NCBI GenBank assembly: GCA_945952355.1
Contig: CAMFIW010000021.1
Span: 1-14,291, forward strand
Source of the DNA: an uncultured Phenylobacterium sp.
GTDB lineage: Bacteria > Pseudomonadota > Alphaproteobacteria > Caulobacterales > Caulobacteraceae
Length of the DNA: 14,291 bases
Direction of reading: 5' to 3'
In this document: in pieces, positions 1,641 to 10,270 of the stretch
Position numbering within the stretch: position 1 is the stretch's first letter
Layout of the letters: each line of letters opens with the position of its first letter
Program-made: the position numbers and the translations under genes
The notes under the pieces: generated by a model
Told to the model about the DNA's origin: nothing
The model's database searches: none
What the model saw: only the letters and a program-made list of their open reading frames with translations

Positions 1641-1844
1641 CCAAGCAAAATGAAGGCTGCAAGGAGCCCGCGCAAAGCGCGCGGCGGGACGCGCCGTCGA
1701 GCGGCTGGCGGCGCGGAGCGCCCGTAGGGGCGGACCCGTACGAGCCGCGGCACGCGGCGGGACCGAGCACGCCCGACAGCCGCTCTCCGGTTTAGGCACG
1801 GCAAAGAGAAGCCCTCCAACGCTATCGCGTTTTGGACAATTATC

Positions 1845-1873
1845 TTGAATTTTCCCGATCAATTGGCCATATA
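1845..1873 (+). promoter_or_regulatory. Candidate hipBA promoter
   Basis: TTGAAT at 1845-1850 and CATATA at 1868-1873 are spaced by 17 bp, a sigma70-like arrangement within an otherwise GC-rich region. Transcription would begin around 1880, almost at the proposed GTG start of hipB, giving a leaderless or nearly leaderless message. The match is moderate and the call tentative. HipB-type antitoxins usually bind their own promoter, but I see no TATCC-N8-GGATA operator of the E. coli type. Confidence 0.35.
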
Positions 1874-1879
1874 CGGACA

Positions 1880-2209
1880 GTGCTACAGACACCCTCCGAA
1901 ATCCTGCATGAGCTCGCCGGCCGCATCAAAGCGCGCCGGGTCGCCTTGGGCTGGCCTCAGCTCGAAGCCGCCCAGCGCGCTGGCGTCGCCTACCGGACGT
2001 GGCGGCGGCTGGAGACCGAGGGACAGGCTTCGCTGGAGGACATGGTGAAGGCCGCCGTCGCCCTGCGCTGCGAGGAAGCGTTAGGCGCTCTCTTTCCCTT
2101 GCCCGCGGCCAGCAGCCTCGACGCCCTCCTGGCGCAGCAGGTCGCGCGCGTCCCGACGCGGCGGGTACGGGCGCCCCGCTCACGCTCGGCCAGGCCGCCA
2201 AGCCCATGA
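1880..2209 (+). CDS. hipB: HipB-type antitoxin, XRE-family helix-turn-helix
   Basis: A small DNA-binding protein of about 109 residues, counted from the in-frame GTG at 1880 (MLQTPSEILHELAGRIKARR). A TTG at 1832 would add 16 residues, but these read like promoter sequence. The helix-turn-helix runs from about residue 13 to 65: RIKARRVALGWPQLEAAQRA, then GVAYRTWRRLE, then a segment (ASLEDMVKAA) typical of XRE repressors paired with HipA. The C-terminal tail is Arg/Pro/Ser-rich. Its TGA overlaps the ATG of hipA as ATGA, so the two are probably translationally coupled. By analogy with E. coli HipB it should bind HipA, neutralise it and repress its own operon. Start choice is uncertain; the family is fairly sure. 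Confidence 0.75.
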   Translation: MLQTPSEILHELAGRIKARRVALGWPQLEAAQRAGVAYRTWRRLETEGQASLEDMVKAAVALRCEEALGALFPLPAASSLDALLAQQVARVPTRRVRAPRSRSARPPSP

Positions 2210-3459
2210 AACTTGCGCCGGGAACCCCGCTGGCCGCCAGTCTGGCCTTTGACGACGACCAGGCCGCCCTGCCCGTCGGCCGCCTGGCCATGGCCGGCGG
2301 CCTGGCGCAACTGGAATGGTCTCCGGAACTCATCGCGGCGCCTGTGCCGGTTTCGGCCCTGCTCTACCCGCCAGAACCCGGCCTGCACCCCGCACGCGGA
2401 CGCGAGTTCGAGGGCTTGCACGGCTTTCTCGCCGACAGCTTGCCGGAAGGTTGGGGCTACCTCGTCATGCGGCGACGCCTGAGCAAGCTCGGCGTCAGCA
2501 TCGAGACCTTGAGCCCGCTCGACCGCCTGGCGTTGGTCGGCGACCACGGCCGCGGCGCCCTGACCTATCGGCCGGCGACCGCGCCGCCGCCCGAGGTGGC
2601 GAGCCTCGACCTTGACGCCCTTGCAGCAGAGTCCACCGCGATCCTGACCGGTCACGAAGGCGAGCTTGCCGACACCTTGGCAGCCCTGGCCGGCGGCTCG
2701 GGCGGCGCGCGGCCCAAGGTCCACGTCGGCTTCGATGCCGAGGGACGGATTTCGATCTCGGAGGGCGAGACCGCCGCCGGTCACGAGGCCTGGATCGTCA
2801 AGTTCGCCGCGACCAACGACCCGCCCGACATCGGGCCGATCGAGGCCGCCTATGCCGCCATGGCCCTGACCGCCGGCCTCGACATGGCGCCCCACCGGCT
2901 GCTCCCGTCCAAAACCGGCCCCGGCTATTTCGCGACCCGCCGGTTCGACCGGCCGTGTCCCGGCCAGCGACTGCACATGGTCTCGCTGAGCGGCGCCGTC
3001 GAAGCGCCCTGGCGCACGCCTGCAAGCTACGACCTCTTCCTGCGCGCCACCGTCGCCATCACCCGGCACGCCGAGGATCTGCAGGCCGCGTTCCGGCGCA
3101 TGGTCTTCAACGTGCTGGCGAGCAACCGGGACGACCATACCCGGCAGCACAGTTACCTGATGGATGCGCAAGGCCAATGGCGGCTCGCGCCGGCCTATGA
3201 CCTGACCTATTCGGCAGGCCCTGGCGGCGAGCACTACCTCGACGTCGAGGGCGAAGGCCGCAACCCTACCCGTGCGCAGGTTCATGCCCTAGGTCGTCGC
3301 CACAGCCTCTCCGACCGCCTCATCGACGCCGTCATCGAAGAGGTTCGCGCCGCCGTGGCCGATTGGCCGCGCTTTGCCGAAGACGCAGGCGTGACCCGGG
3401 CCTCTCGCGCTGAAATCCTAGCCGCCCACCAAGCGGTCGAGGCGGCCTTCTCGACCTGA
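2206..3459 (+). CDS. hipA: HipA-type serine/threonine kinase toxin
   Basis: The 417-residue protein is close to the 440 residues of E. coli HipA. It starts at ATG 2206, overlapping the hipB stop; the frame is open further upstream but only as a shadow of hipB. The kinase landmarks are in order: a Gly-rich loop GGSGGARPK (163-171), a strand lysine in AWIVKF (K199), YFATRRFDR (241-249), the catalytic loop NRDDH (307-311, with D309 where E. coli has its catalytic Asp) and the metal-binding YDL (331-333). It therefore looks catalytically intact. E. coli HipA phosphorylates glutamyl-tRNA synthetase and arrests translation; the target here is unknown, since HipA relatives differ in substrate. It ends 3 bp from the stop of convergent trbB, with no terminator between. 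On a plasmid it probably serves stability or phage defence (inference). Confidence 0.88.
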   Translation: MKLAPGTPLAASLAFDDDQAALPVGRLAMAGGLAQLEWSPELIAAPVPVSALLYPPEPGLHPARGREFEGLHGFLADSLPEGWGYLVMRRRLSKLGVSIETLSPLDRLALVGDHGRGALTYRPATAPPPEVASLDLDALAAESTAILTGHEGELADTLAALAGGSGGARPKVHVGFDAEGRISISEGETAAGHEAWIVKFAATNDPPDIGPIEAAYAAMALTAGLDMAPHRLLPSKTGPGYFATRRFDRPCPGQRLHMVSLSGAVEAPWRTPASYDLFLRATVAITRHAEDLQAAFRRMVFNVLASNRDDHTRQHSYLMDAQGQWRLAPAYDLTYSAGPGGEHYLDVEGEGRNPTRAQVHALGRRHSLSDRLIDAVIEEVRAAVADWPRFAEDAGVTRASRAEILAAHQAVEAAFST

Positions 3460-3462
3460 ACT

Positions 3463-4464
3463 CTAGGCGGCCTGGACGACGTAGCCGCCCTCACCCCACC
3501 CTGTCACCCGCATCAGCTCCGACACCCGGCGGCCGCCGGGCGTGCGCGCAATGTGGATCACAAGGTCGATCGCCTGACCAATAGCCCGGTGCGGAATCCG
3601 CTGCGTCACCTCGCCGATCAGGTCTTCCAGGCGGCTGAGGCCTTCCGCCGCGCTGTTGGCGTGCAAAGTCGCCAACCCGCCCGGGTGGCCGGTATTCCAC
3701 GCCTTCAAAAGATCCAGCGCCGAGCCGTCGCGCACCTCGCCGATGACGATGCGGTCGGGCCGAAGCCGCAGCGTGTCGCGCACCAGGTCGGTCATGGTCA
3801 CCGCCGGTTCCGTGCGCTTGGTCAGCATCTGAATCTGGTCGGCGGCCGAGCACTGCAGCTCGGCGGTGTCTTCGATCAGGACCACTCGGTCGCCCGCAAA
3901 GGCCGGCTCGGCCAGGATGGCGTTGGCCAAGGTCGTCTTGCCCGACCCGGTGCCGCCCACGATGAGCAGGTTTTGGCGCGCCTCGGCCGCGGCCCGGATC
4001 GTCTCGGCCTGGCTCGCGCTCATCATGCCGCCCTCGACATAGTCGGTGAGGGTGAACACCACCTCGGGCCGCTTGCGGATCGCGAAAGCCGGCCGCGCCA
4101 CGACCGGCATGAAGGCGCCCTGGAAACGCTCGCCGGTCTCCGGCAGGGTCGCGCTGACCCGCGGCCGGTCGCGGGTCACCACCTCCCCCGCGTGATCGGC
4201 CAGGAGGCGCAAGATCCGGTCGGCGTCAGCCGCCGCCAGTAGCTCTCCTGTCCACGAGCGCCCCTCCCCGATCCGGTCGATCCAGATCTTGCCGTCGGGA
4301 TTGACCATCACCTCGACCACCATGCGGTCGGCGAGGGCGGCGGCGATCACCGGTCCCATGGCCTGGCGCAACGCGGCGACCTTGCGGTCGAGAACAACAG
4401 GATGGCGTTCGGTCATGGGGCGCTCGCGGAACAAGGAAGGGTCATAGGCTGCCGTCGTCGTCAT
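3463..4464 (-). CDS. trbB: TrbB/VirB11-family secretion ATPase
   Basis: The 333-residue hexameric ATPase acts at the cytoplasmic base of a conjugative type IV secretion system. Visible elements are the Walker A GGTGSGKT (170-177), an Asp-box IEDTAELQ (197-204), the Walker B region IVIGEVRD (239-246) and a His-box GHPGGLATLHAN (259-270). An N-terminal domain of about 150 residues precedes them, and the length is normal for TrbB. The first start at 4464 overlaps traG by 23 bp and has a weak GAGAG upstream; ATG 4416 (MTERHPVVLD) is a credible alternative, giving 317 residues. In P-type systems trbB opens a trb operon (trbC, D, E, J, L, F, G, I); here the operon ends at trbB and runs into convergent hipA. 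CpaF/TadA ATPases are related, but the TraG neighbour favours TrbB. Confidence 0.9.
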   Translation of the reverse strand: MTTTAAYDPSLFRERPMTERHPVVLDRKVAALRQAMGPVIAAALADRMVVEVMVNPDGKIWIDRIGEGRSWTGELLAAADADRILRLLADHAGEVVTRDRPRVSATLPETGERFQGAFMPVVARPAFAIRKRPEVVFTLTDYVEGGMMSASQAETIRAAAEARQNLLIVGGTGSGKTTLANAILAEPAFAGDRVVLIEDTAELQCSAADQIQMLTKRTEPAVTMTDLVRDTLRLRPDRIVIGEVRDGSALDLLKAWNTGHPGGLATLHANSAAEGLSRLEDLIGEVTQRIPHRAIGQAIDLVIHIARTPGGRRVSELMRVTGWGEGGYVVQAA

Positions 4465-6433
4465 CGGCTCTCAGCGCCGCCACAGGGGCCAAGGTGAGGT
4501 AGTCGGACGCCAACACCGCCTCTGGGACGTCAGCGGCCTCTGGAGGGCCCTCAGCGCCGCTGTAGCGCGGCTTGGGGACCCGGACGCCGGCAAAGGCTTC
4601 TGGCGGGGCGCAGACGGCCCTAACGCCACGCCAGTCGATGCTGGCGGGTCCGGGCAAATCGGCCGCGCCCGGCCGCTGCTCATAGGCCGCCGGCACACCG
4701 TGGAAATAGGCCCCGGTGCGCGCCTTGAAGAACGGCTCTTCGTAGTAGCGGATCTTGTCGGCCAGGATCGGCTTGGTGTTGTTCACGAACAGGAACTGCT
4801 TGCGGTCATCCAGGCCGCGCACGTCCTCCTCCGACAGGATGTAGCGCTGCTGCTCTGACTGCGACGTCGACCGATGCGCCCGCCCGAACAGGCTGCGCGG
4901 GTCGCTGTAACTCTCCCGCATCTCCAGCGCCTTGCCGGCGCGGCGCGTGACCTTTTCGATGCTGGTGGGCTCGGACGTCGCGAAGGTCGCGGTGATGTGC
5001 ATGTTGTCGAATAACGGCGTTTTGTCACCGTACTTGGAAAACACGTCGTTGAAGCTCTGGCAGACCAGGTGGGCGGTGATCCCGTAGCCGGCCATCTCCC
5101 CCATGGCGTTCTCCAGGAACGGCAGACTGCCGAGCTTGGGAAACTCGTCGAGCAACAGCAGCAGTCGATGGCGCTTACGGCGCCGCCGGCTGTCATAGTG
5201 CTCATGCTCCATCAGGCTGTTCACGCTCTGGCGGATGAACACCCGCACCAGGAAGGCCAGGCGGTCGGCGTGGGCCTGCGGTGTGATCAGGTAGAAGGTC
5301 ACCGGCGCCTCGGCGCACACCAGGTCGCCGATCGAGAAATCCGACCAGCTGGTGGCGTATTCGACCAGAGGATCGGCCCATAGCGACAGCGAGGCCCGGC
5401 AGGTCGCCAGCACATTGGATTTGACCCGCTCGTCCATGCCGGCGAGCGCTGTGGCCCCCAGACGCACCTCGGGATGGGTTTCGGGGATGGGCGCCCCGTC
5501 CGCGTCGCGCGCCAGGCCATCGTCCGCGTGATAGTCGGGCTGATGGCGATGCTGGGTGTGCAGCATGGCGTGTAGCGTCGGCTCGATGTCGATCAACAGC
5601 CGCCGGACCTGCGCGAGGTTCTTGCGCTCGTCAGGCTCGCTGTAGAGAACATGCAGGATCACCGCCGTGAAGAAGTCGGTGGCGCTCTGGTCCCAGAAGT
5701 TCAGGTCGCCGGCCTTGCGCCCGAGCGGATCGACCAGGATGCCGACCACATTCTGGATGTCGGCGATTTCCATCGGACCCTTGCGGACCTCGAACAGCGG
5801 ATTCCAGCGCACCGTGTTGGGATCGGTCGGGGCGAAGTAGAAGACGTGGCTGAACGTCTTCCGATGATCGGCCGTGATGTGCCAAAGCTCGCCCTTGCGG
5901 TCGTAGACGAAGGCGCTCTCCGGCCAGGCCACCAGAGTCGGCACCACATGGCCCGCGCCCTTACCGCTGCGCGACGCGCCGACGATGATCGCGTGCTCCG
6001 GACCGCCGTAGGTCAGATAGCGGCCCTTGAACCGGCCCAACACCCGGCCCCGGATCTGACCGCCTTGGCCGAACAGTTTGGCGCGCGCGACGTCCGCCAA
6101 GTCCGCCCAGGCGTCACGGCCAAACGCCTTGGGCGCGCGCCCCGAGCCGCGGGTCGCGAGCGCCGTGAAAAGGATCGGCGCCATCGCCACCGCGAGCCCC
6201 GCCAGCCCGGCGCCATCGAACAGCCGCGGGTAGCGCGGCTGCAACGCCAGATACCATTCGGCGAAGGCCCAAGGCCGATAGAGCCGGACCGGGCCGAGGT
6301 CCGCCCAGCCCGCCCCCAAGGCGGCCGCGTAGTGCAGACCGTGCGCCGCCTGTTGGGTGGCCCAACCGAGGCCGAGCAGGATCGCCAAGACCGCGATCGG
6401 CAAGACGAGGAGGAGACGCTGGGAGGTCGTCAT
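4442..6433 (-). CDS. traG: TraG/VirD4-family coupling protein
   Basis: The 663-residue inner-membrane ATPase links the relaxase-DNA complex to the secretion channel. Two N-terminal membrane segments are visible at about 7-25 and 74-93, with a short periplasmic loop between them. The Walker A is GASRSGKGA (152-160), followed by FVYDRKGELW (175-184). The Walker B is LLLLLDEFPKLG (424-435), followed by a conserved stretch ending in HLVCQSF (455-461). The length fits TraG of Ti and RP4-like plasmids (about 640-660). The last 90 residues are Pro/Ala-rich and end in acidic DDDDGSL, a likely variable region for substrate recognition. It starts 7 bp after the relaxase stop, with trbB overlapping its end: one operon of relaxase, traG and trbB. 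The CopG-like gene that often lies between traG and trbB is missing. Confidence 0.93.
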   Translation of the reverse strand: MTTSQRLLLVLPIAVLAILLGLGWATQQAAHGLHYAAALGAGWADLGPVRLYRPWAFAEWYLALQPRYPRLFDGAGLAGLAVAMAPILFTALATRGSGRAPKAFGRDAWADLADVARAKLFGQGGQIRGRVLGRFKGRYLTYGGPEHAIIVGASRSGKGAGHVVPTLVAWPESAFVYDRKGELWHITADHRKTFSHVFYFAPTDPNTVRWNPLFEVRKGPMEIADIQNVVGILVDPLGRKAGDLNFWDQSATDFFTAVILHVLYSEPDERKNLAQVRRLLIDIEPTLHAMLHTQHRHQPDYHADDGLARDADGAPIPETHPEVRLGATALAGMDERVKSNVLATCRASLSLWADPLVEYATSWSDFSIGDLVCAEAPVTFYLITPQAHADRLAFLVRVFIRQSVNSLMEHEHYDSRRRRKRHRLLLLLDEFPKLGSLPFLENAMGEMAGYGITAHLVCQSFNDVFSKYGDKTPLFDNMHITATFATSEPTSIEKVTRRAGKALEMRESYSDPRSLFGRAHRSTSQSEQQRYILSEEDVRGLDDRKQFLFVNNTKPILADKIRYYEEPFFKARTGAYFHGVPAAYEQRPGAADLPGPASIDWRGVRAVCAPPEAFAGVRVPKPRYSGAEGPPEAADVPEAVLASDYLTLAPVAALRADDDDGSL

Positions 6434-6440
6434 TGGGCCC

Positions 6441-7937
6441 TCATCGACCTGGAAGGATGCCGCGGCCGATGGTCTGGCCCATGGAGCGATTGACGCGCTC
6501 GACGGCCAGCGCCCGAGCCTGCGCCGGATAGCGCATCAGGGCGGCCCGGGCGGGCCCGCCGACCTCGCGGATGAACCGGGTTTCGTCGGGCAAACGGGAC
6601 GGAACCTGCAGCTCCTTCTGTCCGAGCGCCTGGGCGACCCGCAGGTCATTGTAGGCCCGCGTGGCGCCCTCGATCCGCTTGTCGATCCGCTTGATCTTGC
6701 GCTCGAGCGTGCGCCGCTCGCGCGCCACATCGGCCGCCCGCTCCAGCTGCGGTCCGCGTCGCCCCGCGACATAGGCCTGACCGGCCGGCGAGGCGATCCA
6801 GGCGGCTCGCACCTGCACATCGATCTGCGCCCGCCGCGCCGCCGCACGCGCCCGGGCGATGGCGTTAAGCTCCGCGTGCTTGGCCCAGATCATCCGCGCC
6901 GGATTGCGGATCCACTGGACGAGGGCGAGCCGCCTCTGGCGCACGCTAACCACCCGCTGCTCGACCTGACGTAGCCGAAGTTTGGTCGCCGCCAGCGCCG
7001 CGCGGGCGGGCTGTAAGAGCTCGCGCTCCACCGCCCGCACGCTGTCGATTTTCGGTAAGACAAGCGCCGACCTTTCGGCCGCCCAACGATCCCGCTCCGC
7101 GATCATCCGGGCGCGCATCTGCTCGGCCTCCGTCGTCAGTTTCGCCACCGGCACGGCGATCACCGGCGCCTCGCGCACCAGCCGATCCGCCGTCGCCTGA
7201 AAGTCCGTCCGCAGCTCTTTTCGTTTGGCGTTGTGGGCGTTGGTGTCGCGGTTCTGCTGTCCACGCTCCGAGGCGATGTCCTTGCGCTCCAGAGCGCTCG
7301 CCGTCGGCCCCAAATGCACCCCGGGCTCCCGGTCCGAACCCTGCTCGGCCAGGGATAAATGCGAGACTTGCGGCGCGTCCGGACCAAGATGCCGACGCAG
7401 ATGTTCGTTCTGGATCTCCGCCCACGCCGACCGCCATTCGCGGACCGCCTTCGGGCTCCACCACTCGGCCGGCTTTTTGCCGAATCCGGCCGGCGTCACC
7501 GACCGGGTCGTCACCAGGATATGGGCGTGGAAATTGCGCTCGTCGCCGGCCTGACCAGGCCGATGCATCGCCACGTCGGCGACCATCCCGCGCGCCACCA
7601 GCTGCTCGGCGACGAACGCCTCCACCAAGGCCCGCCGCTGGCCGAAATCCAGCTCGTGCGGCAGCGAGACCAACAGCTCCCTCGCGGGCACGGCGTCCTT
7701 GCGATTCTCGGCCGCCTCGGCCGCGTTCCATAGCGTCTGACGATCTCCGAAAGCGGCCGGGGCGTCGGTCGGCGCCATGATGGCCGCGAACTCGATGTCG
7801 CCCTTGGCCCCGAAGTCGAACTCCATCGCCAGACGCTCGTCGATCAGGCGATCGCCCGAGCGATAGGCGGCCGCCGCGACGGCGGACCGGCCGGCCGATC
7901 TTTGGATGGTCTGCACTTCTAGTCGGTACTGCGCCAT
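6441..7937 (-). CDS. MobQ (MobA/MobL) family relaxase
   Basis: The 498-residue relaxase should nick oriT and stay bound to the 5' end. It shows the MobQ motifs: the N-terminal Tyr in AAAAYRSGDRL (Y25, the likely attacking residue), the acidic motif NAAEAAENRKD (71-81), H125 in AMHRPG, and the metal-binding histidines in NFHAHI (H137, H139). A further MobQ signature lies at SLAEQGSDREPGVHLGP (195-211). About 280 residues follow, basic and probably coiled-coil, rich in Arg, Ala and Glu. Unlike Ti/rhizobial TraA there is no RecD-like helicase domain, so this is a relaxase-only protein like MobA of RSF1010 but without the primase. A good Shine-Dalgarno, GGAGGAGGG, precedes the ATG. The gene begins next to oriT and heads the traG-trbB operon. 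Confidence 0.92.
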   Translation of the reverse strand: MAQYRLEVQTIQRSAGRSAVAAAAYRSGDRLIDERLAMEFDFGAKGDIEFAAIMAPTDAPAAFGDRQTLWNAAEAAENRKDAVPARELLVSLPHELDFGQRRALVEAFVAEQLVARGMVADVAMHRPGQAGDERNFHAHILVTTRSVTPAGFGKKPAEWWSPKAVREWRSAWAEIQNEHLRRHLGPDAPQVSHLSLAEQGSDREPGVHLGPTASALERKDIASERGQQNRDTNAHNAKRKELRTDFQATADRLVREAPVIAVPVAKLTTEAEQMRARMIAERDRWAAERSALVLPKIDSVRAVERELLQPARAALAATKLRLRQVEQRVVSVRQRRLALVQWIRNPARMIWAKHAELNAIARARAAARRAQIDVQVRAAWIASPAGQAYVAGRRGPQLERAADVARERRTLERKIKRIDKRIEGATRAYNDLRVAQALGQKELQVPSRLPDETRFIREVGGPARAALMRYPAQARALAVERVNRSMGQTIGRGILPGR

Positions 7938-7982
7938 GCGCCCTCCTCCAGCCTAGTCGCTACGGCCCCTGCCGGGATCGCT

Positions 7983-7997
7983 AAGGGCAACGCCCTT
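7983..7997. repeat. Perfect hairpin between relaxase and oriT core
   Basis: AAGGGC (7983-7988), loop AAC, GCCCTT (7992-7997). On the minus strand it lies in the 5' leader of the relaxase gene, 45 bp before its ATG, so it may be an operator or a leader hairpin that limits relaxase synthesis. No T-run follows. Confidence 0.5.
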
Positions 7998-7999
7998 GG

Positions 8000-8040
8000 C
8001 TCAAGGTTTCCTTCGGATCGTGGAGACGAAGGGCCTTGAG
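8000..8040. repeat. Long two-part inverted repeat within oriT
   Basis: The outer arms CTCAAGG (8000-8006) and CCTTGAG (8034-8040) are perfect. Inside are CTTCG (8011-8015) and CGAAG (8027-8031), separated from the outer arms by 4 and 2 bases. It could bind the TraD-like accessory protein or form a cruciform near the nick site (inference). Confidence 0.6.
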
Positions 8041-8201
8041 GGTGTTGGGCGAGGCCTGACCGCAGGGTTGGTGGGCGCAGCACATCCAACCCGTAACTGC
8101 GCCCTTGTGACGAATTACGATGAACCCCGGCATAGACCGATTTGCGCTTTGCTGGCAGAATTACGCCGTTTCGTGCTTTTTCTTCAATGAAAGGCCGCGT
8201 C

Positions 8202-8885
8202 ATGGCCAAGGTCGACAAGCGCCGTAGGAACACCCGCCCCTCCAAGTACAAACCCCGCTCGCCCGCCCAGCTCGCCCGCAAACGCGAGCTCTGGGCGGCC
8301 CGTTCAAGCGACCGCGAACGGGCGAAAAGGACCGACGAAGAAGCCGCCCTCATCGATCGTTTGGCGGAACTGGAGACCGCGCTTCGAGAGGCCGGCCAGG
8401 ACGGAATCCACAAGCAGCGGCACGTCACCCCGCTCGAAGATATCGAGGACGACGCCAAGCGCTTCCACGTCCTGAAGGCCCGCGTGGAGCGGCTCGAGGC
8501 CCTATGGTCGATCAACAAGCGCAGGCGCGAAACGCGCGGCAAAATCATCATCGGCGGCGCCCTGCTGGCGGAAGCCGGCGACGCCCACTTTGCCGGAGAC
8601 GACGAGCTGCTGGCCCGCCTGGTCGACATCCTTGATCGGCGCGTCGAGCGCGTCCGCGACCGCCTGACGGTGCGCGAACTCCTAGGCAATGTGCCCCTGC
8701 CCTTGCGCCCGGGCGGCGACCTGGATGAGGACGCTGAAAGCGCCCTTCAAGCTGCCGGCGACCGCCTCCCCGATTTCGATCTGATGGCCGAGACAGCCCT
8801 CGCGCACGAAGGCGCTGACCCCCTGACGCCGAGCGAACTCGACCCCGACTACGCGGACCTCGATCAGGCCTGGCGCGCCGCCTGA
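8202..8885 (+). CDS. traD: TraD-like conjugal transfer (relaxosome accessory) protein
   Basis: The protein has 227 residues from ATG 8202, chosen because GAAAGG (8189-8194) sits a normal distance upstream; an in-frame ATG at 8187 would add five residues. The N-terminus is strongly basic (KVDKRRRNTRPSKYKPRS), followed by a charged, probably coiled-coil region (about 35-105). The motif KRRRETRGKIIIGGALLAEAG (106-126) resembles the core of the small TraD proteins of Ti-type transfer systems, where a basic stretch precedes an LGGL-like segment. The rest is acidic, and the whole is longer than Ti TraD (about 70 residues), so it may be a fusion or an extended relative. It is divergent from the relaxase across oriT, the usual place for a relaxosome component. 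Its stop abuts the stop of the convergent hydrolase gene with no gap (TGATCA). Confidence 0.65.
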   Translation: MAKVDKRRRNTRPSKYKPRSPAQLARKRELWAARSSDRERAKRTDEEAALIDRLAELETALREAGQDGIHKQRHVTPLEDIEDDAKRFHVLKARVERLEALWSINKRRRETRGKIIIGGALLAEAGDAHFAGDDELLARLVDILDRRVERVRDRLTVRELLGNVPLPLRPGGDLDEDAESALQAAGDRLPDFDLMAETALAHEGADPLTPSELDPDYADLDQAWRAA

Positions 8886-9719
8886 TCATCGCTCGGCGCC
8901 GACGGCAAGGCCGGGTCCCACCACGAAGATCGAGCGGCCCGGGTCGGTGACCTTGGTGGCCTGCAACGAGCCCTGCCCGGCTTCACGCGCCGCCGCACCG
9001 GCCGCCGGGTCTCTCGCTGCGTCCGCCCGGTTGTCGCCGACGAAAATGGCGCCGCCAGCCGCCCGCCAAGCGGCGGCGGACGACGATCCACGAGGGGTGG
9101 AGGTTGCGGCCGTCGTGCGAGATCCCCTCGCCCCAGCGGACCGCGCTTCGACATAGAAACTGTGTGCGCCAATCACCGCCGAGGGACCCGTGCCCCCGAA
9201 GTTCACCAAGCCCTCGGACACCTCGCCCCGACGGGCGCGGTCCGCAACGATCTGCGGGTTCTGGAAGAAGCGCGCGCCGTTCGTCAGATCCGGCAACCGG
9301 CCTTCCAGTGCGAGGTTGAGGATAGTCTCGATCCGGGCGCGTTGCGCGACCGTGGAGGCCGGCAGGCGACGCCAGTCACCGCCGGCTCGCATCACCGGCT
9401 CGAACTGGCCTCGGGCGTTGACCACGGCCTCGACCGTGGCGCCCCAGCGCCCGTCCTGGACCCGATTGAGGATCGTGTAGACGACGGCGGCCAGGCCGCT
9501 GTCGCCCTGATTGCCGGCCTCGGCGAAGGCGACCCGGGTGATCGCTTCGCGCGCGTCCGGGCCGGCCACGAGGGGAGCCAGATCGCTCCGCGTCCACGGC
9601 GGCGCCATCGCCGCCGAGGCGGGCGCGGGAAGCGGGCAATTGACGCCTGCGGGCAAGGGTTGGGCGCTCTGTCCGCGCGCCAGCAGCAGGCACAATCCCG
9701 CCAGGGCTGCCGGGTCCAC
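8886..9719 (-). CDS. SleB-like cell wall hydrolase associated with transfer
   Basis: The start is GTG 9719, overlapping the traF stop by one base (TAGTG), with a strong AGGAG eight bases upstream; this gives 277 residues. The open frame extends to 9881, but only as a shadow of traF. A hydrophobic N-terminus (ALAGLCLLLA) ending near AQPLPA looks like a signal peptide, though with no N-terminal basic charge. The hydrolase domain spans about residues 55-190: DAREAITRVAFAEAGNQGD (E67 in FAEAG is the likely catalytic Glu), AAVVYTILNRV, then QFEP and IGAHSFY. This matches the SleB/Hydrolase_2 family, which cleaves peptidoglycan. The C-terminal 90 residues are Ala/Gly/Arg-rich and low in complexity. 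Position after traF suggests it opens the wall for the transfer channel, the job done by VirB1 or TrbN elsewhere (inference). Confidence 0.8.
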   Translation of the reverse strand: MDPAALAGLCLLLARGQSAQPLPAGVNCPLPAPASAAMAPPWTRSDLAPLVAGPDAREAITRVAFAEAGNQGDSGLAAVVYTILNRVQDGRWGATVEAVVNARGQFEPVMRAGGDWRRLPASTVAQRARIETILNLALEGRLPDLTNGARFFQNPQIVADRARRGEVSEGLVNFGGTGPSAVIGAHSFYVEARSAGARGSRTTAATSTPRGSSSAAAWRAAGGAIFVGDNRADAARDPAAGAAAREAGQGSLQATKVTDPGRSIFVVGPGLAVGAER

Positions 9720-10270
9720 TAACGGTCTCCTAGGGAGGGAAACGACAGGGTCACCGGCCGGAACACACCGACGATGTCGGCGCGGCTCACCGGGCCGAAG
9801 TAGCGACTGTCGAAGCTGTTGGGAATGCGGTCGGAGAAGACGAACACCTCGCCGTCCCGTAGACGGCGACAGCCGGCCCAAAGCGGCAACACAGCGCCAC
9901 GGCGATCCTGCTTCAGGATGGGGGCTCGCACCTGCCCATTGATCACCAGCCGGCCGTCTTCCGTGCAGACGTGGTCGCCGGACACGGCGGCGACGGACTT
10001 CAGAATCGGGACCCGGCGCAGGTAGTTCATGTGCCCGTCGGCGTAGGGAAAAGCGGCCGCCGGCGCGGGAAAGGCGACCAGCGCGCCGACCCTCGCCGGC
10101 TCGTCCTGCCGCGCATAAAGACCCTCCGGCTCACTGGCGGTTCGGTTCCACAGGAGCAGCGGACGGTCGCCCCCAGCCGTGGCTATCGACAACGCGCTGA
10201 TGAGCGCGGCCCCGCCGCCCAGGACGCAGGCCAAGGGCGTCCAGCGCGGGGCAATGGGGGACAGAAACAT
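9719..10270 (-). CDS. traF: TraF, S26-family signal peptidase (pilin maturation)
   Basis: The 183-residue length is typical of TraF from RP4 and Ti-like plasmids. One N-terminal membrane segment (about 13-31, LACVLGGGAALISALSIA) anchors the peptidase domain outside the inner membrane. The Ser/Lys dyad is visible as S46 in NRTASEPEGLY and K91 in PILKSVAAVSGD. The conserved NSFDSRYFGPV (151-161) closes the active site, and two Cys (C102, C134) may pair. In RP4, TraF trims and cyclises the TrbC pilin; no trbC is seen here, so its substrate must be encoded elsewhere. No clear Shine-Dalgarno precedes ATG 10270. It overlaps the next gene by one base and follows a terminator-like hairpin that separates it from parB. 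Confidence 0.9.
   Translation of the reverse strand: MFLSPIAPRWTPLACVLGGGAALISALSIATAGGDRPLLLWNRTASEPEGLYARQDEPARVGALVAFPAPAAAFPYADGHMNYLRRVPILKSVAAVSGDHVCTEDGRLVINGQVRAPILKQDRRGAVLPLWAGCRRLRDGEVFVFSDRIPNSFDSRYFGPVSRADIVGVFRPVTLSFPSLGDR

Follow-up and report, generated by a model that had tools for sequence, protein, structure and literature searches.

The nearest described counterparts of the site analysed here are the origins of transfer (oriT) of MOBQ plasmids, for which a consensus, NWACCNNTAAGTGCGCCCTY, has been quoted (PMC3832669). In the IncQ1 group (RSF1010/R1162), whose MobA is a MOBQ relaxase, a hairpin is followed by TAA and a TGCG/CCC nick core. The substrate used for RSF1010 reads GTAAGTGCG/CCCTCCC, where the slash marks the nick (PMC4814116). 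NES, also of the MOBQ class, is described as bending the single strand ahead of the nick, short of a full U-turn (PMC4176350). Outside this class, plasmid pMV158 (MobM, MOBV) carries partly overlapping, mutually exclusive hairpins, the longer, bulged one containing the shorter one; in the longer one, IR3, the right arm has the nick at its 3' end, and footprinting revealed that MobM switches IR3 to IR1 (PMC5863519).

The DNA analysed here, referred to as the window, spans 14,291 nucleotides and is one contig (C21) of a genome in 664 contigs. Judged by its sequence, the region described below is the nick region of a MobQ-type oriT beside a MobQ relaxase gene on a Caulobacteraceae plasmid contig, and it is probably the site at which a Caulobacter-type plasmid is cut to begin moving between bacteria. 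The nearest named plasmid record, pNIBR24541 of Caulobacter sp. NIBR2454, is 95.4% identical over positions 7900–8250 and 98.0% identical in the relaxase. The genes that define the neighbourhood are the following.

3463..4464, minus strand: TrbB-type conjugative transfer ATPase (TIGR02782, 402.8 bits, cut-off 304.55)
4442..6433, minus strand: coupling protein of the TraG/VirD4 type (PF02534)
6441..7937, minus strand: MobQ relaxase, 498 aa (PF03389; NCBIfam NF041496; NES, 4ht4; Y25 and HAH at 137–139)
8202..8885, plus strand: divergent 227-aa frame, matching no family in the Pfam and NCBIfam searches

The relaxase scored 201.3 bits against PF03389 (cut-off 26.7), which places it in the MobA/MobL (MOBQ) family above the curated cut-off, and 236.9 bits against the NCBIfam MobQ model NF041496 (cut-off 200). 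A search of the PDB with the same protein (E 0.01) returned NES (4ht4) as the sole match, at E 2.2e-23. The catalytic tyrosine and histidine triad are present as Y25, H125, H137, and H139; the counterparts in MOBQ4 relaxases are Y25, H125, H133, and H135 (PMC6856555). The divergent 227-aa frame occupies the position of mobC in MOBQ4 plasmids (PMC6856555), and the MobQ-bearing plasmids L002–L004 have a gene annotated as hypothetical in the corresponding place. NCBIfam TraG-type matches to the coupling protein fall under their cut-offs. The window also encodes ParA-type and ParB-type proteins and a RepA-type initiator, and two neighbouring plus-strand frames at 1832–3459 may represent a HipB/HipA pair. 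Next to the transfer region, 8886–10270 encodes a cell wall hydrolase (PF07486) together with a signal-peptidase S26 protein (PF10502), and a cell wall hydrolase is annotated at the corresponding place in L002–L004. These three plasmids are classed as non-mobilizable by PLSDB/MOB-suite typing, which may consequently overlook the clade of the window.

As in other MOBQ plasmids, the oriT adjoins the relaxase gene and consists of a hairpin followed by a TAAGTGCGCCCTY-like core; the window sequence CAACCCGTAACTGCGCCCTT differs from the MOBQ consensus at a single position, G to C. The slash in the RSF1010 substrate places the putative nick by homology at 8101/8102. A sequence-only reading of this DNA had proposed a MobQ oriT with a hairpin just 5' of the nick core and a nick at about this position, and the proposal is supported by the RSF1010 homology and by the relaxase passing the MobQ cut-off. 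That reading had also drawn attention to two perfect, interleaved inverted repeats, which lie 128–167 bp upstream of the relaxase start codon (7937), between the relaxase gene and the divergent frame. The elements of the site are listed below.

8044..8060, plus strand: GTTGGGC-GAG-GCCTGAC, a second conserved hairpin, abutting the closing stem on its 5' side
8061..8064, plus strand: CGCA, which supplies the 5' side of the nested closing stem; G8065 is an optional fifth base that competes with the hairpin base
8065..8092, plus strand: main oriT hairpin, with a 7-bp base (8065–8071/8086–8092), T8085 as a bulge, an apex (8072–8076/8080–8084), and a GCA triloop (8077–8079)
8073..8104, plus strand: interleaved repeat GGGCGCAG/CTGCGCCC, exact as sequence, unsupported as a conserved structure
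8093..8097, plus strand: GTAAC, a linker that joins the hairpin to the closing stem and is left unpaired by the lowest-energy fold
8098..8101, plus strand: nick core TGCG, doubling as the 3' arm of the closing stem, which ends at the putative nick
8101..8102, plus strand: putative relaxase nick, TGCG^CCC, placed by homology to RSF1010 (PMC4814116) and the MOBQ consensus (PMC3832669)

Relatives were gathered in two sets. The clade of the window was assembled from relaxase searches of 297 and 390 partly overlapping genomes (48 genomes matching at E 1e-20 and 42 at E 1e-60), from a search of genome contigs (33 loci), and from plasmids; removal of duplicates left 31 loci with relaxases 56–100% identical and 20 distinct oriT cores, that of the window included. 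L073, whose core reads ATGCG followed by CAATT, was recognised later and left out of the clade alignment. The wide set drew on 14 further MobQ plasmids, the distant loci of the clade searches, and a PF03389 search of 398 genomes in the phylum, 35 of which matched. Its sites were located by a pattern that asks for a hairpin, a linker containing TA, and a core and takes no account of the left arm, and 40 of the 95 distinct matches were chosen by eye as oriTs with the left flanks visible. A written rule, blind to the left flank, likewise passed 40 sites, 38 of them common to the by-eye set; the two extra sites come from L116 and L117, each read in a second register, and the rule fails L104 and L109, by-eye choices whose linker is ATTA. 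Ten further sites with imperfect hairpins were added. These searches identified no oriT in L096, L097, L099, L105, L107, L112, L115, L120, L121, L122, L126, L129, L130, L132, L136, and L137. L030, L076, and L078 have no upstream sequence, and L091 has no relaxase match. L139, L140, and L141, discussed below, are single examples that stand outside the wide-set counts.

Two hairpins accompany the main one on its relaxase-proximal side. The hairpin at 8044–8060 keeps 7 of 7 pairs, G.T counted, in all of the 28 clade loci that were aligned here (L021, L027, and L061 were omitted), with changes among loci between T-A and C-G and between G-C and A-T; its apex, GGGC-NNN-GCC, resembles that of the main hairpin. 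Another, GCTAAGGGC-AAC-GCCCTTGGC at 7980–8000, lies between the relaxase gene and the oriT, and its arms are identical in 28/28 aligned loci while the loop varies. An Rfam search of the window at the gathering threshold gave no match, this last hairpin included.

The stem GGGTTGG (8065–8071)/CCAACCC (8086–8092) described earlier is exact, but it does not enclose a 14-nt open loop: the supposed loop, in which the second repeat starts, is itself a stem with a triloop, making the hairpin longer. In the window, the apex TGGGC-GCA-GCACA allows 8072–8076 to pair with 8080–8084 with one G.A mismatch, and most distinct clade sequences have the fully paired form TGGGC-GTA-GCCCA. Triloops of the form GNA are frequent in distant MobQ hairpins too. 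Among the 20 distinct clade sequences, 90.3% of the cells of hairpin and apex are paired, and 5 of the 12 pairs change on both sides (17 cells). None of 500 shuffles scored as high for cells paired, for cells changed on both sides, or for the covariation score; for pairs changed 1/500 did so, and for further pair types 218/500. Individual loci illustrate the exchanges, for example, a base pair that turns from G-C to C-G in L017 and a stem that reads CAGTCACG/CGTGACTG in L072. These compensatory changes strongly support the main hairpin as a conserved structure, and the shuffle comparison rejects a chance origin. In L021, most of the main hairpin is gone through a deletion of about 18–19 nt relative to L019, and the complementarity of CGCAT and ATGCG is retained.

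The same alignment speaks differently about the second repeat, GGGCGCAG (8073–8080)/CTGCGCCC (8097–8104), which is as exact as had been described and for which a role as a switch had been proposed: the 8-bp stem would replace the main hairpin, or form a pseudoknot with it, and so hide the nick. Exact 8-nt arm pairs with spacers of 3–25 nt occur 18 times in the 14.3 kb window, so that such a repeat is by itself unremarkable; of 300 dinucleotide-shuffled versions of the intergenic region (7938–8201, 264 bases), 8.7% contain at least one. The interleaved combination of 7- and 8-nt arms occurs once in the window and in 0/300 shuffles of that region, and is thus locally unexpected by chance. Taken alone, the interleaved stem is also about as stable in the window as the hairpin with its apex (−9.8 and −9.6 kcal/mol), and its six central pairs, one of them usually G.T, persist in most clade sequences; both sides of these pairs are, however, otherwise constrained, and their persistence therefore gives no positive evidence for the stem. 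Against the switch, none of its eight pairs is changed on both sides in the 20 distinct sequences, of the 19 other sequences 3 retain the outermost pair and 6 the innermost, and all eight are kept in just 2 of the 20. Even close relatives depart from it: L012, L013, L014, and L016, with relaxases 91–92% identical to that of the window, have A at 8104 with the left arm unchanged, a central pair is broken in L044 (relaxase 92% identical), L021 has lost the left arm by deletion, and the apex differs in more distant members. The energy of the stem drops to −2.6 kcal/mol in 11/20 sequences, and it appears in the lowest-energy fold of none of the 20, all of which contain the nested stem described below.

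In the clade, covariation supports the main hairpin; for the interleaved stem there is no such support, and as a conserved switch we reject it, its probability being very small indeed. An H-type pseudoknot of both stems would be unlikely as well, given connecting loops of 1 and 4 nt across stems of 8 and 7 bp. Most simply, the interleaved repeat could be a by-product of two constrained elements: the conserved apex of the hairpin, GGGC and its triloop, supplies the left arm, and the conserved nick core supplies the right one.

A third arm had been missed earlier. CGCA at 8061–8064 is complementary to TGCG at 8098–8101 and is nested around the main hairpin rather than interleaved with it. Concealment of the nick core by pairing, as proposed earlier, thus gains support, but through this nested stem, CGCA/TGCG, and not through the interleaved one. 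With DNA parameters, the fold containing the closing stem is the lowest in the window, at −12.1 kcal/mol. Its linker, GTAAC, matches the ATAA/GTAA-like linkers of other MobQ oriTs. Within the clade, the TGCG core is invariant across the 20 aligned sequences, as are three of the closing pairs; at the fourth, 12 sequences have A-T, 6 have G.T, and 2 are unpaired, and the fifth carries bases in just 5 rows (T-A in 3, G-C in 1, broken in 1). Covariation of the closing stem was as high in 206/500 shuffles, and owing to this near-invariance the clade is hardly informative about it. The lowest-energy fold of 8038–8110 also pairs AGGG (8039–8042) with CCCT (8102–8105) across the nick; we make no claim for this extension, since relatives with CCAT on the right still have GAGGG on the left.

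The wide set, in which the cores vary, is more telling. It comprises 44 distinct combinations of left arm and core from 70 entries, and for each of the six core types at least one left arm is its own exact 5-nt complement, 0–2 nt from the hairpin (GTGCG with CGCAC in 8/17, CTGCG with CGCAG in 4/8, ATGCG with CGCAT in 1/8, GCGCG with CGCGC in 1/9, GCGTG with CACGC in 1/1, and CCGCG with CGCGG in 1/1), whereas 28/44 combinations have no exact 5-nt arm. Arms seldom complement the core of another type: GTGCG occurs three times with the wobble arm CGCGC, and CTGCG once each with CGCAT and CGCGG. The pairs GCGTG/CACGC of Sphingobium pSY2 (L010) and GTGCG/CGCAC of Brevibacillus (L106) are two double changes apart. 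When cores were permuted, the observed complementarity was reached in 0/20,000 trials, a value inflated by the relatedness of the sequences and not a true probability. Matched changes of arm and core are accordingly seen in part of the wider MobQ set. Where flanks were long enough, an exact match lay 0–2 nt from the hairpin base in 15/35 and at 3–9 nt in 0/35. Under strict scoring, in which the first core base must pair too, the window's own arm reaches 2/5, since its fifth base, G8065, belongs to the hairpin base.

Folding gave a similar picture. Of 40 sites, 30 were folded after omission of near-duplicates (L031, L048, L084, L088, L090, L092, L111, L114, L116, and L117, which have 3 to 5 core bases paired). 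At least three core bases paired with the left flank in 29/30, L080 being the sole fold without a closing stem, and all five did so in 22/30; shuffled left flanks gave means of 15.5 and 3.3 and maxima of 22 and 10, respectively. With a left flank taken from an oriT of another core, pairing of all five bases fell to 7.5%, while at least three bases still paired in 80%, which indicates that weak pairing largely reflects similarity among the arms. At the 40 sites of the rule that is blind to the left arm, all five core bases were paired in 26. A chance origin of the closing stem is therefore unlikely. No description of a covarying closing stem in MobQ oriTs was found in open-access titles and the opening parts of abstracts, which is weak evidence of novelty.

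Comparable arrangements are predicted in better-known systems. The IncQ1 record L139, which contains the RSF1010 substrate, folds at 366–442 into a four-way structure in which GCGCA/TGCGC closes three hairpins (z −4.15), at odds with the earlier view that the RSF1010 site has the first hairpin only. Unlike in the window, about 23 nt, occupied by two additional hairpins, separate the GCGCA arm from the hairpin on its 3' side. In vitro, RSF1010 substrates that lack the outer arm are still cleaved (PMC4814116), so that a closing stem is unnecessary for cleavage of the single strand and lies outside the minimal substrate. The staphylococcal NES-type oriT (MOBQ; S. aureus L140, which carries an 'oriT nickase' gene) has a GAA-capped hairpin, an ATAA linker, and a GTGCG core, and its predicted fold includes closing pairs GCAC/GTGC, that is, four pairs with a core different from that of the window. 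We take L140 to be of the pSK41/pLW1043 type. In the Ti-type TraA oriT of rhizobia and agrobacteria (Agrobacterium L141), a hairpin and a TATAA linker precede a TTGCG core that pairs with GCAA in the predicted fold; here the protein is much longer than the relaxase of the window, and core and arms differ. As for pMV158, the window likewise has a shorter hairpin nested in a longer bulged one whose 3' end falls at the nick, as placed here by homology. Its relaxase is MobQ rather than MOBV, so it is no member of the pMV158 family, but it may work alike; the switch was footprinted in pMV158 (PMC5863519) and is deduced in the window.

We propose that the nicked strand would fold as one extended hairpin, made up of the imperfect main stem (8065–8092), the linker (8093–8097), and the closing stem CGCA/TGCG. 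This would be a closed form, in which the four bases before the nick are paired. The relaxase would bind the main hairpin and open the closing stem only, exposing TAACTGCG as a single strand for cleavage at 8101/8102; in the resulting open form the main hairpin would persist, with the relaxase keeping the core single-stranded. The transferred strand may adopt the fold again when transfer ends, which would hold its 3' end in place for rejoining. The switch of IR3 to IR1 by MobM in pMV158 (PMC5863519) is a precedent. That the window is such an oriT, with a closing stem that hides the nick core and is opened by the relaxase and an interleaved repeat that is a by-product, we consider somewhat more probable than not; the nick position, the opening by the relaxase, and any gating or termination role are inferred. 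The extension to MobQ oriTs generally is put forward tentatively and falls a little short of an even chance: in staphylococci, Brevibacillus, Ti-type, IncQ1, and Caulobacter plasmids, the last 4–5 bases before the nick may pair with an arm outside the recognised hairpin, in a conserved stem that ends at or next to the nick and acts as a relaxase-opened DNA lock co-evolving with the core.

Matched changes in the two arms could have another source. The arms may instead be the two halves of a symmetric binding site in double-stranded DNA, recognised, for example, by a dimeric accessory protein or a second relaxase, and would then never pair within one strand. A dimer reading both half-sites predicts the same matched changes; a gene without a matched family indeed adjoins the site, at the place of mobC in MOBQ4 plasmids (PMC6856555). 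Such a site sits less easily with exact matches that stay 0–2 nt from the hairpin base although the length of the hairpin varies, or with the IncQ1 arm, which is parted from the hairpin by further hairpins and is still opposite the core in the predicted fold. We regard it as rather unlikely, and give about the same weight to a stem that forms but acts solely at the end of transfer, holding the 3' end at the nick for rejoining, and has no part in the start. The closing stem does end at the putative nick, and for TrwC the distal arm of the hairpin is reported to matter mainly for hairpin formation in the recipient (PMC4176350), yet for pMV158 the switch by MobM is assigned to transfer initiation (PMC5863519).

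It is quite improbable that everything beyond the main hairpin is a coincidence of base composition in a G+C-rich intergenic region. G+C content is about 63% in 8001–8500, and the fold of 8038–8110, which includes the upstream hairpin, is moderately better than those of shuffled sequences (z −1.70, 13/200 shuffles as good). Composition would not explain, however, why arms match their cores specifically across MobQ oriTs, the outcome of the shuffle and exchange controls, or the z of −4.15 for the IncQ1 fold.

Should the closing stem prove real, a MobQ nick site would be more than a hairpin plus a single-stranded core, and the in vitro oligonucleotides without the outer arm, such as those of RSF1010 (PMC4814116), would omit a recurrent part of it. 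Prediction of oriTs could then improve, as the left arm would be expected to match the core. MobQ plasmids would have the same kind of structural gate as pMV158, and the arm would offer a simple test of how the site stays closed until the relaxosome is ready.
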